Positions 1-5,944 of a stretch of 5,944 nt of DNA are shown here, piece after piece (positions within the stretch are counted from its first letter, which is position 1; each line of letters begins with the position of its first letter). A program made the translations under genes and the position numbers. This DNA comes from Thermoplasmata archaeon (GTDB taxonomy: Archaea; Thermoplasmatota; Thermoplasmata; Thermoplasmatales; Thermoplasmataceae), in NCBI GenBank assembly GCA_021802165.1, contig JAKAAU010000102.1, positions 1-5,944 on the forward strand. Reading direction: 5' to 3'. The notes under the pieces are model-generated. The model saw only the letters and a list, made by a program, of their open reading frames with translations, did no database searches and was not told the origin of the DNA.

Positions 1-1905
1 ATCTGACCAGTTCTGTACACTTGTGTACTTTACATCAGAATTCTTCCTTGCGTATATTTCTACTATGGCTGTATGCAATGAACTTGTATTGTATTTCGGC
101 GCCGTGCAGTTATGAACTGCAAATCCCTTTACCAGGTATGAGTCGTCAGTTTCAACTTCAAGGTTGTATACAATATCGTTGTATTCTTCACGTTCTACCT
201 TCTTTATAGGAACATAGTAATAGTTGTTCTTATGCCTTACCCTGCTGAATTTTATATTTTCTGTATATTCTACTATGTACTGTTCTTTTCTCTGAATAGC
301 CCTGCCACTGATTTCATCGCTGGAGGCAGGCCTGATCATTATGCTGGCAAATATATTGTTCCTTGAAAGCATTTCCTGAAGCTGGAATGCAAGAGCCCTG
401 CTCACTGTGGCTGCCCTGATCATTTTTGATTTGCCTTTTTTTAGATATATATTGCCATCTCCTTTCAGGTAATAGTCTATTAACAGTTTCTGCTTTTCTG
501 CCGGGAGTTTCATGATTTTATCCGAAAATGCCTTCTTATCCGCGTATTTTCCTCCATTTTCCAGGCAGAATTTTATCAGTGGTTTCGAGTATGTTGAAAC
601 TGTATAGTATTTCTTCCCTGCCATGAATATATTAACCTGTTCACCGGATTCCTTTATTATATTGTATAAATCATATGCAATCTCCTTTTCCTTTTCTGAC
701 CTCCCGAACGAAAAGGTCATCTGATCCACATTCAGTGCTTTATTGAATGATATGGAGCCCTCTGCCATGTATAGTCCCAGAATCTTCAGCATAGATTCGT
801 TTATGGAATCATCGTCCTCTGTTGCCACAGGCGATACATAAACAATGAAATCTCCCACAGACAATTCATCGGTTCTTCTGTACTGGGGCTCAGCCTCCAT
901 TAATTTTTTGGTTGAAATTTCATTATATCCGTTTCTTATCCTTGATGTGACCTCCTCCTTCTTTATGCTGAGAACAGGATGTTCCGATGTTGCCTTAAAT
1001 GCATTTCCCGGGGATAGTGGTATGATTTTGTACATAAATCCATTGTAGGGATGTACGTATTTCCTTGTAATTTTCCTTTTATTTCCTGTGTTTGAAACTA
1101 CCTCATTGTCTGTAAGCAATTCATCTATCCTGACGAATTTATCGCCCTGGCTAACAAGTTCATCTTCCGGTAAGCAACCTTCTATGTAGTGCACCTTTGC
1201 ACCCTCATCTGCAACAACTATTGTATGTTCGAACTGTCCGCTCTGCTCACCGTTCATCCTGAAATATGTCTGCAATGGCATGTCTATTGTAACATTCTTG
1301 GGAACATACAGGAAAGACCCACCGGACCATACTGCACCGTTCAGTGCTGCAAATTTATTGTCACTGGGGGGAATTGCCCTGCAGTAGTAATCCTTTACAA
1401 GGTCAGGGTGCTCCTGTACTGCTGTGTCAAGGTCAGTGAATATAACTCCCTTATCCTCCCATTCCTTTCTCAGGCTTCCGTAAACTCCTTCACTGTCATA
1501 CTGTGCAACAGATCCTGCAAGGTATTTCTGTTCCATCTGGGGTATTCCCAGCTTATCGAATGTTTCCTTTATCTTGTCCGGAACCTCATCCCAGTTCTTT
1601 GCCTTGGTTTCTCCGGGCTTTGAATAGTATGTAAGATTGTCAAAGTCTATTCCTGACAGGTCCGGCCCCCAAGTGGGCATGGGCTTTGAAAGGAATATCT
1701 CCAGCGCTTTTAGCCTGCTCCTCCTCATCCAGTCCGGCTCATGCTTTATATCTGATATTTCCTCCACTGTTTTTCTTGTAAGCCCGGCACCTGTTGAATA
1801 CACAGGATTTATTGTATCATGAAACTCGAAATCTGACTTTTTGCTGTGCTTCAGACTTTCTGTCAATTTTTCTATTTCCTCATCTTTATTGTAGTCTTCC
1901 ACCAT
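1..1905 (-). CDS. sufB: Fe-S cluster assembly scaffold SufB, intein-containing precursor (3' end off window)
   Basis: SufB is the scaffold subunit of the cytosolic SufBC(D) complex, on which Fe-S clusters are built using SufC ATPase activity. Reading the minus strand from ATG at 1905 gives one open frame of 635 codons to the window edge. Residues 1-243 are the N-terminal extein and carry SufB hallmarks: GVIFTDLDTAVQEHPDLV (154-171), PPSDNKFAALNGAVWSGGSF (179-198), and QFEHTIVVADEGAKVHYIEG (224-243). Residues 244-599 are an intein. Residues 600-635 resume SufB as CTAPKYNTSSLHTAIVE and onward, so EG plus CTAPKY rebuilds the universal motif. SufB is usually about 470 aa, so roughly 190 residues lie beyond the left edge. 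The start is chosen because a GGAG ribosome-binding site precedes it by 8 nt. The start is 5 nt beyond the sufC stop, so the two genes form an operon. Whether sufD follows cannot be seen. The N-extein holds one other Cys, C175. Confidence 0.96.
   Translation of the reverse strand, partial: MVEDYNKDEEIEKLTESLKHSKKSDFEFHDTINPVYSTGAGLTRKTVEEISDIKHEPDWMRRSRLKALEIFLSKPMPTWGPDLSGIDFDNLTYYSKPGETKAKNWDEVPDKIKETFDKLGIPQMEQKYLAGSVAQYDSEGVYGSLRKEWEDKGVIFTDLDTAVQEHPDLVKDYYCRAIPPSDNKFAALNGAVWSGGSFLYVPKNVTIDMPLQTYFRMNGEQSGQFEHTIVVADEGAKVHYIEGCLPEDELVSQGDKFVRIDELLTDNEVVSNTGNKRKITRKYVHPYNGFMYKIIPLSPGNAFKATSEHPVLSIKKEEVTSRIRNGYNEISTKKLMEAEPQYRRTDELSVGDFIVYVSPVATEDDDSINESMLKILGLYMAEGSISFNKALNVDQMTFSFGRSEKEKEIAYDLYNIIKESGEQVNIFMAGKKYYTVSTYSKPLIKFCLENGGKYADKKAFSDKIMKLPAEKQKLLIDYYLKGDGNIYLKKGKSKMIRAATVSRALAFQLQEMLSRNNIFASIMIRPASSDEISGRAIQRKEQYIVEYTENIKFSRVRHKNNYYYVPIKKVEREEYNDIVYNLEVETDDSYLVKGFAVHNCTAPKYNTSSLHTAIVEIYARKNSDVKYTSVQNWSD
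109..1176 (-). mobile_element. SufB intein (356 aa, class 1, with LAGLIDADG homing endonuclease)
   Basis: This in-frame 1068-bp insertion splits the SufB motif EG|CTAPKY and matches a self-splicing intein block by block. Block A is the N-terminal Cys1 in CLPEDELV. Block B is ATSEHPVLSI, with the TxxH pair at T63 and H66. An ELSVGDFIVY segment (about 103-113) closes the N-terminal Hint part. Block C is LGLYMAEGS (133-141) and block E is LIDYYLKGDGN (232-242), the two LAGLIDADG helices. Block F is VYNLEVETDDSYLVKG (336-351). Block G is AVHN, with penultimate His355 and terminal Asn356, followed by Cys+1. All canonical splice residues are present, and there is no stop or frameshift, so splicing should yield intact SufB. 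Known class 1 chemistry is N-S shift at Cys1, transesterification to Cys+1, then Asn cyclisation. Apart from Cys1, the only intein cysteine is C204. Codon usage looks like the host gene by eye; I did not count it. Confidence 0.95.
247..840 (-). other. DOD-type LAGLIDADG homing endonuclease domain within the SufB intein
   Basis: This is the approximate extent, intein residues 113-310, between the N- and C-terminal halves of the Hint splicing domain. The two dodecapeptide motifs lie at 754-789 (LKILGLYMAEGS, acidic residue E139) and 451-483 (LIDYYLKGDGN, acidic residue D240), about 101 residues apart, which is normal for a monomeric two-motif enzyme. Each motif keeps the acidic residue that coordinates metal in this family. 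The domain is rich in Lys, Arg and Tyr, as expected of a DNA-binding nuclease. By family knowledge it would cut intein-less sufB alleles near the GGT|TGC-type junction to drive homing. Present activity is inferred only from intact motifs and an open frame. Domain edges are estimates. Confidence 0.85.
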
Positions 1906-1910
1906 TTTTA

Positions 1911-2654
1911 TCACTCCTTTATCCAGTCGTATCCCTCATCCTCTATTCTATCGGATACGTTTTTATCTCCATTCATTACTATTTTTCCGTCCTTCAGTAC
2001 GTGCACGAATTCAGGTATAATATCCTTCAATATTCTCTGATAATGTGTAATTATAAGGAATCCTACCTTCTGGTTGTACATTTTCTTTATCTCTGCTGAT
2101 ACAAGTTTCAGTGCATCAACATCAAGGCCAGAATCTATTTCATCAAGTATAACGATTTTTGGCCTGAGTATAACCATCTGGAGAACCTCAAAGCGCTTTC
2201 TCTCACCACCGGAGAAACCGTCGTTAATTGCCCTTGTTATAAAGGATTCGTCCATATCAACATCCTTCATTACTTCCTTTACCATGTTGAAGAATTCCTT
2301 TAAGGGCATTTTTTCATCGGGATATAAATTATTATAGGCCATCCTCAAAAAAGTTGAAATTTTGACACCACTCACTGTTATGGGATTCTGGAATGCCAGG
2401 AATAAACCTGCCCTTGCACGGTCTTCAGGCGCTGCATGGGTTATATCCTTTCCGTTGATCAGAATTTTGCCATCGGTGACCGTGTAATTGGGATGGCCTA
2501 TGAGTACCTCTCCCAGGGTGCTTTTGCCTGCCCCGTTGGGCCCCATTAGTGCATGGATTTCGCCAGAATTGACTGTAAGGTTGATTCCCTTCAATATTTC
2601 TTTGCCATCTACCTCGGCCTTCAGGTTTTTGATCTCAAGTACTGTTTCTGTCAT
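1911..2654 (-). CDS. sufC: Fe-S cluster assembly ATPase SufC
   Basis: SufC is the cytosolic ABC-type ATPase that powers conformational change in the SufB/SufD scaffold during Fe-S cluster assembly. It has no membrane segments. The 247-aa protein is full length for the family (about 245-260). Motifs in order: Walker A GPNGAGKST (38-46, K44), Q-loop Q89, ABC signature FSGGERKR (147-154), Walker B IVILDEIDSGLD (167-178, catalytic E172), and switch His H204 in ITHYQR. The segment DEIDSGLDVDALK is diagnostic of SufC among ABC ATPases. The start at 2654 is supported by full alignment from the first strand (VLEIKNLKAEVDGKEIL) and by a TATA-like box placed for a leaderless transcript. It is the first gene of a sufC-sufB operon, with 5 nt between its stop and the sufB ATG, and it diverges from a SufR-like regulator gene 103 bp away. 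Confidence 0.97.
   Translation of the reverse strand: MTETVLEIKNLKAEVDGKEILKGINLTVNSGEIHALMGPNGAGKSTLGEVLIGHPNYTVTDGKILINGKDITHAAPEDRARAGLFLAFQNPITVSGVKISTFLRMAYNNLYPDEKMPLKEFFNMVKEVMKDVDMDESFITRAINDGFSGGERKRFEVLQMVILRPKIVILDEIDSGLDVDALKLVSAEIKKMYNQKVGFLIITHYQRILKDIIPEFVHVLKDGKIVMNGDKNVSDRIEDEGYDWIKE
1914..1920 (-). promoter_or_regulatory. sufB ribosome-binding site inside the sufC 3' end
   Basis: On the minus strand AAAGGAG lies within the last codons of sufC, and GGAG is 8 nt before the sufB ATG at 1905. It supports the chosen sufB start and translation of sufB as an internal gene of the sufCB transcript. The first gene, sufC, shows no such site. Confidence 0.75.
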
Positions 2655-2757: not shown

Positions 2758-3417
2758 ATGGAAGAGTTAATTAACGATTATCTTGGGAATAGTAAAACAA
2801 CTATACTCAGTTCACTGCTGTACGAGGATAAAACCCTTGAACAGCTTTCCGGCATAATGAAGGTAAATAAAAATGCTGTGAAAGAGCATTTAAGCTATCT
2901 TGAAAACCATAGCCTGGTTTCATCATACTTTGTAAGGGCCAAGGCTGGAAGGCCGAAGAAATATTATAAGCTGACAATGAAGGGCATGCAGATATTCCCC
3001 AAGCAGTACATAAACTTCTCATCAATGCTTCTCAAGGAGGTTGAAAATGAGATAGGCACAGTAAGGCTGAACGGTATATTGATGAAAATTGCAGAGGACA
3101 TGGTAAAGGAAGTTTCATCGGACAGCATAGCCCTTGCCTCATTGACAAGGGATGAAAAACTTGAAAAGATAGGCGAGTATGTAAATATCCTCAACCGCCT
3201 TGGCTACTATGCAAAGATGGAGGTTGAGGGGGATACCGTTAAAATTATCAGGCACAACTGTGTATTCTATGAACTGGCAAAAAACAATAAGGACATGGTA
3301 TGCGGATCCCTGGAAAAATCAATGTTTTCAGATACAGTGAGCGATGATTTCAAGCTCATGGAAAACTTTCCGGATGGAGATAACAAATGCGTGGTTGAAA
3401 TATCCATATCAGATTGA
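2758..3417 (+). CDS. sufR: SufR-like winged-helix transcriptional regulator, probable Fe-S sensor
   Basis: This 219-aa protein has an N-terminal winged helix-turn-helix of the ArsR/DeoR-like type. Residues about 15-55 form the helices (ILSSLLYEDKTLEQLSGIMK, then NKNAVKEHLSYLENHSLV), followed by the wing GRPKKYYKLT (64-73) and FPKQY (80-84). All of these resemble SufR. The C-terminal domain has three cysteines, C168 (in RHNC), C182 and C211 (in GDNKCVVEI), spaced C-X13-C-X28-C. In SufR the cysteines follow C-X12-13-C-X13-C-X14-C, so the first, second and last are matched and the third is absent. SufR binds an Fe-S cluster and represses suf genes when clusters are plentiful. The gene is divergent from sufCB, with an inverted repeat at its own promoter, consistent with autoregulation and control of the operon. 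Cluster binding and repression are inferred. The start at 2758 suits the TATA position and the HTH begins soon after it. Confidence 0.78.
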   Translation: MEELINDYLGNSKTTILSSLLYEDKTLEQLSGIMKVNKNAVKEHLSYLENHSLVSSYFVRAKAGRPKKYYKLTMKGMQIFPKQYINFSSMLLKEVENEIGTVRLNGILMKIAEDMVKEVSSDSIALASLTRDEKLEKIGEYVNILNRLGYYAKMEVEGDTVKIIRHNCVFYELAKNNKDMVCGSLEKSMFSDTVSDDFKLMENFPDGDNKCVVEISISD

Positions 3418-5608: not shown

Positions 5609-5944
5609 ATGACACAGTTCGGTATTGATTTTCAGCTGAGGGTTTACACAGGAATGGATGAAAATTCAGACCTCCCAGTATCTGTTGATGACTGGAGAAA
5701 TGCAGCCAGAAAAGCTTTAAAGGATGGGCCCTGGGGGTATATAGAGGGCGCTGCCGGAAGTGAGGATACAATGGCAGAGAATATCCGGGCATTTACCCGT
5801 TACAGGATACGTCCTAGATATCTCCATAACGTTGAGGAAAGAAACCAATCTGTTACAATTTTCGGAAAAAAACAGGATTCTCCATTTATTCTGGCACCAA
5901 TAGGTGTACAGTCCATAATACACAGGGATGCTGAGTATAGATCG
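5609..5944 (+). CDS. FMN-dependent alpha-hydroxy-acid oxidase, lactate 2-monooxygenase-like (N-terminal part only)
   Basis: Only the first 112 residues are in the window; the frame is open to the right edge. The enzyme class oxidises 2-hydroxy acids such as lactate with FMN in a TIM barrel. Visible family features are YIEGAAGSEDT (44-54), NIRAFTRYRIRPRYL (58-72), and FILAPIGVQSIIHRDAE (93-109), the first FMN-facing strand of the barrel. The APIGV...H-D-A/G-E form is typical of the lactate 2-monooxygenase-like branch, whereas glycolate oxidases carry APTAMQ at that place. The catalytic His, Arg and Lys lie in the missing C-terminal part, so substrate and oxidase versus monooxygenase activity cannot be judged. 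The protein is expected to be cytosolic. The ATG at 5609 starts the natural N-terminus (MTQFGIDFQLRVYTG). Confidence 0.87.
   Translation, partial: MTQFGIDFQLRVYTGMDENSDLPVSVDDWRNAARKALKDGPWGYIEGAAGSEDTMAENIRAFTRYRIRPRYLHNVEERNQSVTIFGKKQDSPFILAPIGVQSIIHRDAEYRS

Follow-up and report, generated by a model that had tools for sequence, protein, structure and literature searches.

The stretch of DNA analysed here (contig JAKAAU010000102.1 of the Thermoplasmata archaeon assembly GCA_021802165.1; 5,944 nucleotides, hereafter the window) carries on its minus strand the 5′ part of sufB, encoding a scaffold of iron–sulfur (Fe–S) assembly, interrupted by an intein. Very probably, this intein is of class 1, has a two-motif LAGLIDADG endonuclease, lies in the single SufB detected in the assembly of this Ferroplasma-like archaeon, and splices so as to free the equivalent of Escherichia coli Cys254 and release a 41 kDa endonuclease. 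We suggest the following course of events; its splicing chemistry, the requirement that splicing precede function, and endonuclease activity of the window's allele are inferred from established intein biochemistry. The precursor would be translated whole. Cys1 would attack the Gly-Cys bond, and the N-extein would be transferred to Cys+1. Cyclization of Asn356, aided by the penultimate His, and an acyl shift would then give normal SufB with Cys254 free for sulfur uptake. The free endonuclease could copy its gene into intein-free sufB alleles.

The features are listed in Table 1, where coordinates are positions in the window unless another locus is named. A GTG at 1914, given as the start in the mechanical list of open reading frames (ORFs), is an alternative in-frame upstream start of sufB. 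In the matching assembly (L004) the whole gene encodes 836 amino acids from the ATG and is stop-free; 26 of 5944 bases differ between this assembly and the window, and the SufB part of the protein is identical. It should be noted that five of the six terminal bases of the window (5939–5944) disagree with the assembly, as at a contig end. The insert shows the class 1 signature, that is, Cys1, a block B TxxH motif, terminal His-Asn and Cys+1; His66 of block B corresponds to the catalytic histidine of inteins. Both LAGLIDADG motifs (AEG and GDG) retain an acidic residue, and these residues are catalytic in such endonucleases. The calculated mass of the 356-residue intein is 41,001 Da (41.0 kDa), in agreement with the original prediction of a complete intein in SufB and a free product of about 41 kDa; its boundaries were exact.

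Family scans were run on the full-length protein of the matching assembly. Based on Pfam, the precursor matches Intein_splicing (45.2 bits, cut-off 35.8), LAGLIDADG_3 (31.9 bits, cut-off 22.5; second endonuclease half only), SUFBD_core (240 bits, cut-off 27) and, also above its cut-off, SufBD_N. Among the NCBIfam models, TIGR01980 (sufB) scored 685.7 (cut-off 346.4) and intein_Cterm 21.9 (cut-off 15.6), while intein_Nterm, at 17.2, stayed below its cut-off of 24.5. The family matches are far beyond chance. In the predicted structure of the precursor, residues 244–599 match solved inteins and the remainder matches SufB, and a predicted Hedgehog/intein (HINT) fold unites both intein ends.

The insert is missing from orthologues whose flanks are continuous. 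The spliced reading is the same as the natural uninterrupted SufB of the same genus, in which HYIEG runs directly into CTAPKY (G003 and G008:C45). These uninterrupted sequences speak against the contrary case, in which the 356-residue segment would be a normal SufB domain in relatives. By alignment of one uninterrupted same-genus SufB (L041) with E. coli SufB (5awf), the +1 Cys, which is the cysteine of EGC[TS]AP, corresponds to residue 254, as the original prediction had stated. Cys254 is the sulfur-entry residue of E. coli SufB and important for function, according to PMC5571166 and PMC6006206.

Table 1. Positions of the interrupted sufB, its intein, neighbouring genes and related inteins (a slash in a motif, here and in the text, marks the insertion point).
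Feature	Position or protein	Strand	Remarks
sufB precursor gene, 5′ part	1..1905	-	likely ATG at 1905; truncated by window edge
SufB N-extein	1177..1905	-	residues 1-243; C-terminal end ...VHYIEG
Intein	109..1176	-	356 residues, CLPEDELV...KGFAVHN; precursor residues 244-599 from ATG
Cys1	codon 1174..1176	-	first splicing nucleophile
Block B, TSEHP	976..990	-	intein residues 63-67; His66
LAGLIDADG motif 1, LGLYMAEGS	754..780	-	acidic Glu139 kept
LAGLIDADG motif 2, LLIDYYLKGDGN	451..486	-	acidic Asp240 kept
Block G, terminal His-Asn	109..114	-	last Asn (Asn356), codon 111-109
Cys+1	codon 106..108	-	Cys of EGCTAP (in CTAPKY); E. coli SufB Cys254
C-extein start	1..108	-	36 codons within window; 237 residues in assembly
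sufC	1911..2654	-	directly upstream of sufB
SufR-like regulator, divergent	2758..3417	+	beyond sufC; TIGR02702 43 bits, below cut-off 178.8
Interrupted IscU	L078:1321-2763		
Interrupted IscU	L079:1303-2748	-	
Interrupted IscU	L081:1315-2766		
Interrupted IscU	P0121-P0240		
IscU intein, first Cys (CGD motif)	L082		
IscU intein, first Cys (CGD motif)	L085:982-2499		
IscU intein, first Cys (CGD motif)	L086:982-2595		
IscU with inteins at first and second Cys	P0203, P0208, P0211, P0226, P0233, P0235-P0237		
SufB with Cys254 and Cys405 inteins	P0009, P0010, P0011, P0078, P0241, P0246, P0253		both sulfur-relay cysteines
Further SufB insertion site, GS/[KR].TMK	P0081, P0089, P0093, P0103, P0247		+1 Ser
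Further SufB insertion site, SEAVYHS	P0056, P0060		+1 Ser

The distribution of the intein was assessed in a 41-genome sample, in which the junctions of 16 sequences were read. It is present in 9 of the 10 same-genus genomes, including G001, where there is an assembly gap, and in three genomes (G026, G033 and G036) belonging to a different family within the same order. A split or frameshifted intein in G001 was considered and rejected, as the break falls on NN in the assembly. SufB is uninterrupted, with abutting match pieces, in all 15 sampled genomes from other genera of the same family. Within the genus, uninterrupted SufB was found in G003, where it is clipped by a contig end, and in G008:C45 (L041); these proteins are 98–99% identical to that of the window. 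The G008 bin contains this uninterrupted SufB together with an interrupted one (C70, L042); most likely, two species were binned together. Of 389 genomes sampled across the phylum, 36 gave a match at E <=0.001: in 18 the intein interrupts SufB at the Cys254 site (junctions read), three are intein-bearing IscU, and 15 are weaker, mostly partial matches, including those of L082, L085 and L086, where the intein lies at the first Cys of IscU. A scan of named genomes gave four loci, in Ferroplasma acidarmanus Fer1 and three metagenome-assembled genomes, overlapping with the 41-genome sample. A protein search with the intein retrieved 235 proteins. The best 120 of these all have a SufB/SufD-type domain, and 118 show the C-junction of the Cys254 site; the shorter P0004 and P0077 show the N-junction only. 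Source names among the same 120 include Thaumarchaeota, Micrarchaeota, Marsarchaeota, Dojkabacteria, Peregrinibacteria, Elusimicrobia and Latescibacterota.

Based on sequence comparison, the intein is a mobile element: relatives are uninterrupted, intein and extein trees conflict, and the endonuclease decays while splicing residues are kept. All 11 gap-free inteins retain the splicing residues; both endonuclease acids are intact in six of them (G000, G004, G005, G008:C70, G009 and G036), whereas the other five (G006, G002, G007, G033 and G026) lack at least one of the two. Where the ratio of nonsynonymous to synonymous substitution rates (dN/dS) could be computed for both the splicing and the endonuclease part, the splicing part had the lower value in every pair (7 of 7). 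The intein tree places G005 with G000 and G006 (support 80/99), and in extein identity G005 is nearest to G002 and G007. In approximately unbiased (AU) tests, the exteins reject the grouping of G005 with G000 and G006 (p 2e-11), and the inteins reject that of G005 with G002 and G007 (p 0.002). Co-conversion around the G005 insertion was rejected, since only 2 of 23 60-base windows (upstream 0–60 and downstream 180–240) favour G000 over G002, which is too few. Anatomy, predicted fold, uninterrupted relatives, horizontal movement, and the loss of endonuclease acids with splicing residues kept are all directly supported, and the pattern fits the typical life cycle of such elements, in which invasion is followed by decay of the endonuclease and then by loss. 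A viral carrier was considered as well and rejected: when viral contigs were searched with the window's intein, no relative could be confirmed. A viral profile scan gave five distant inteins, four of them 24–25% identical and one (L105) 46% identical in its best segment; judged by eye, none of the five lies in SufB or IscU.

Several points weigh against this reading. The predicted local distance difference test (pLDDT) falls below 50 at residues 240–246 and 600–606 of the precursor model, and the splice-junction geometry is therefore unsupported by the model. In the phylum sample, four same-family genomes of other genera (G244, G254, G330 and G381) carry the intein, so that the 15 of 15 uninterrupted genes are not valid family-wide. 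The SufB sequences of G003 and G008:C45 are only 88–89% identical to that of the window in DNA and thus represent other species rather than same-species alleles. Of the 13 pairs tried, six yielded no dN/dS value for the splicing part, and dS exceeded 1 in several of the rest. Finally, the clades compared in the AU tests were picked with the identities already known, the unconstrained extein tree does not settle where G005 belongs, and the intein tree excludes G001.

SufB inteins, including that of F. acidarmanus, and the Cys+1 chemistry are already published (PMC8891592, PMC8529194); the original prediction had correctly named mycobacteria and Ferroplasma as hosts (PMC8891592). The intein of F. 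acidarmanus Fer1 (NC_021592) lies in the same gene at the same site, has the same length of 356 residues and is 82% identical to the window's, with which it shares common descent. It likewise keeps both endonuclease acids, and allele divergence is the sole difference. The SufB (Pps1) intein of Mycobacterium tuberculosis is described in PMC8891592 as class 1, with Cys1, His-Asn, Cys+1 and an endonuclease, and 359 residues long; its N- and C-exteins have 252 and 235 residues, versus 243 and 237 here, and because of these similar lengths we infer the same insertion site. The M. leprae-type intein, named SufB-b in PMC5050341, is also in SufB, possibly at a different site according to PMC8891592. 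The latter source proposes His-38 of the N-extein as part of a splicing relay in M. tuberculosis and calls it conserved in mycobacterial and archaeal SufB. At position -38, all nine interrupted same-genus sequences read (G000 and eight others) have Thr, and the two uninterrupted same-genus SufB have Gln; members of the other family have His (the interrupted G026, G033 and G036 as well as G039) or Gln (G030).

The identity of SufB is borne out by the TIGR01980 equivalog match together with its neighbours sufC and sufD, the latter lying downstream of sufB beyond the window edge (read in the assembly). The SufR-like gene beside sufC suggests that the suf genes may be under cluster-sensing control. 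No RNA families were found in the window, and no tRNAs in L004. The genome's own assembly, 96% complete, contains one SufB and one SufD; IscU/NifU_N was not found in this assembly by a search that was positive in 12 of 14 control genomes. Five matches to Aminotran_5, a broad family including cysteine desulfurases, and weak ApbC/Nbp35-type (ParA family) matches were also obtained. The Intein_splicing model matched once; it may overlook other inteins, because IscU inteins scored below its cut-off. For M. tuberculosis, SufB that has not been spliced reportedly fails to bind SufC or SufD (Huet 2006, as cited in PMC8529194). A dependence of Fe–S assembly on SufB splicing is plausible. The original prediction had called it full: the single SufB and the IscU/NifU_N result agree with this, while the weak ApbC/Nbp35-type match and the 96% completeness of the assembly speak against so strong a wording.

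It is hardly conceivable that the insert is a lineage-specific SufB domain rather than an intein, given the Pfam intein match, the predicted intein and endonuclease fold and the uninterrupted relatives with continuous flanks; we found no point in its favour. A dead intein, with splicing lost and SufB function lost or supplied from elsewhere, also seems very improbable. The weak ApbC-type match would allow for it, as would the fact that splicing of the window's allele is a prediction, but the reading frame and the splicing residues are intact, the splicing part is under purifying selection in the computable pairs, and the assembly yielded neither a second SufB nor IscU.

The proposal that the intein is retained as a redox or metal switch deserves a longer discussion, and we consider it unlikely. 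Oxidation or reactive sulfur at the +1 (sulfur-entry) cysteine would stall splicing and hold SufB back until conditions become suitable. In the M. tuberculosis SufB intein, oxidants reportedly lead to a Cys1/Cys+1 disulfide (Topilina 2015, as cited in PMC8529194). The constancy of the splicing residues in 11 of 11 inteins, the retention of His-38 in the three interrupted genomes of the other family, and the occurrence of inteins at two key cysteines together in some SufB and IscU (see below) could be taken in the same sense. However, strong conservation of splicing is expected without any regulation, because splicing failure costs the cell SufB, and in the genus itself His-38 is replaced by Thr in every interrupted sequence read. 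The uninterrupted same-genus SufB and the patchy presence elsewhere indicate that the lineage can do without the intein, and the conflict between intein and extein trees fits a mobile element. The original prediction made much of the insertion exactly at a functional cysteine. The position is as stated, but its significance is weaker: the SufB exteins contain only three Cys (175, 244 and 388 of the joined extein, from ATG), which leaves few choices, and since these inteins use Cys at +1 and extein cysteines are rare and conserved, such a position is expected and partly forced. The match of insertion sites with functional cysteines is not by itself evidence of regulation.

Relatives of the intein in IscU widen the picture. 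In the phylum search, three ORFs of 481–485 residues encode an IscU whose second conserved Cys is directly preceded by an intein (E 1e-54 to 1e-60); after the full-length SufB and IscU matches, the next match drops to 1e-17. These ORFs match Pfam NifU_N at 149–158 bits, and by eye an IscS-like gene adjoins the interrupted IscU. The insertion Cys is position 63 of 9vwk_A, an IscU chain; we take Cys63 to be a cluster ligand and the first conserved Cys to be number 37. Over the whole length, three cases are 35–37% identical to the window's intein and, like it, end in KGF[AT]VHN/C. The host protein is unrelated, and the target is FG/C[TAG]A versus EG/CTA; still, G/C[TSAG]A is common to the SufB and IscU sites. 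Across the insertion point, the IscU site of L079 and the uninterrupted SufB site of G003 have 12 contiguous bases in common (GGATGCACGGCC); several pairs were compared, of which this is the best, and part of the identity is imposed by the residues common to both sites. Near the interrupted IscU of L079 (minus strand, about 1–828), a QueC-like gene, recognized by eye, also appears to bear an intein (MDYCLPGSTKIF).

A search with one of these IscU cases scored 7993 proteins, 3354 of them at E <=0.001. Among the best 120 of these 3354, all show the second-Cys junction, eight carry a further, shorter intein before the first IscU Cys, and six bear the label 'SufB' in their source, presumably on account of the intein. 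IscU is interrupted in 3 of 45 genomes of the archaeal family to which L079 belongs. Intein-interrupted IscU appears to be common in uncultured microbes. Quick trees (LG+G4) were built from 85 rows, with at most 36 rows per group, and from all 150 representatives of at least 300 residues; the SufB and IscU groups were each gathered from a search seeded by one member, and the comparison groups were only SufB Cys405 (11 rows) and IscU first-Cys (2 rows). The 150-representative tree recovers SufB Cys254 (63 rows) and IscU second-Cys (74 rows) each as one group, with Shimodaira–Hasegawa-like approximate likelihood ratio test (SH-aLRT) values of 99 and 96. Among the four intein groups these two are sisters: their joining, to the exclusion of IscU first-Cys and SufB Cys405, has 98 in the 85-row tree and 99 in the re-rooted 150-row tree, where labels can shift.

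The equivalent of E. coli Cys405, the second key cysteine of SufB, is precursor residue 744 from ATG and is invariant in a 65-row alignment. Inteins at this site were found in 18 of 54 proteins, of which seven also carry the Cys254 intein and 11 lack a Cys254 junction; the other 36 matches have no Cys405 junction, and many are inteins of other kinds of protein. An intein nested within the SufB intein (P0056, P0060) was considered and rejected, the extra intein being in the N-extein at the Ser of SEAVYHS. Special targeting of catalytic cysteines is likewise unsupported: IscU, like SufB, has three Cys, two other SufB insertion sites use Ser (five and two proteins), and the Cys405-intein search also hit inteins in other hosts, such as radical SAM proteins and a ribonucleotide reductase.

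Based on these results, we propose a single intein lineage that sits ahead of Cys254 in SufB and ahead of the second conserved Cys (Cys63) in IscU, moved between these unrelated scaffolds by an endonuclease that would accept the short shared G/CTA coding sequence (GG.TGCAC.GC); together with the separate SufB Cys405 and IscU first-Cys inteins, this would leave some cells with both key cysteines of one scaffold locked until two splicings have occurred. We consider the chances of this proposal evenly balanced. A literature search of open-licence papers found no description of an IscU or NifU intein, and in its passages on inteins PMC6034842 deals only with the mycobacterial SufB intein; the relation of the SufB and IscU intein families may be new.

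Given the Ferroplasma and mycobacterial SufB inteins already known, the window's allele contributes little beyond the fact that it belongs to a natural series within one genus, comprising an intact endonuclease, a decayed endonuclease and an uninterrupted gene. The wider SufB/IscU pattern matters more. If true, the residence of one intein family in both of these unrelated scaffolds would provide a direct test of host-gene change by inteins, and also of whether key cysteines attract inteins by their chemistry or merely by their rarity and conservation.
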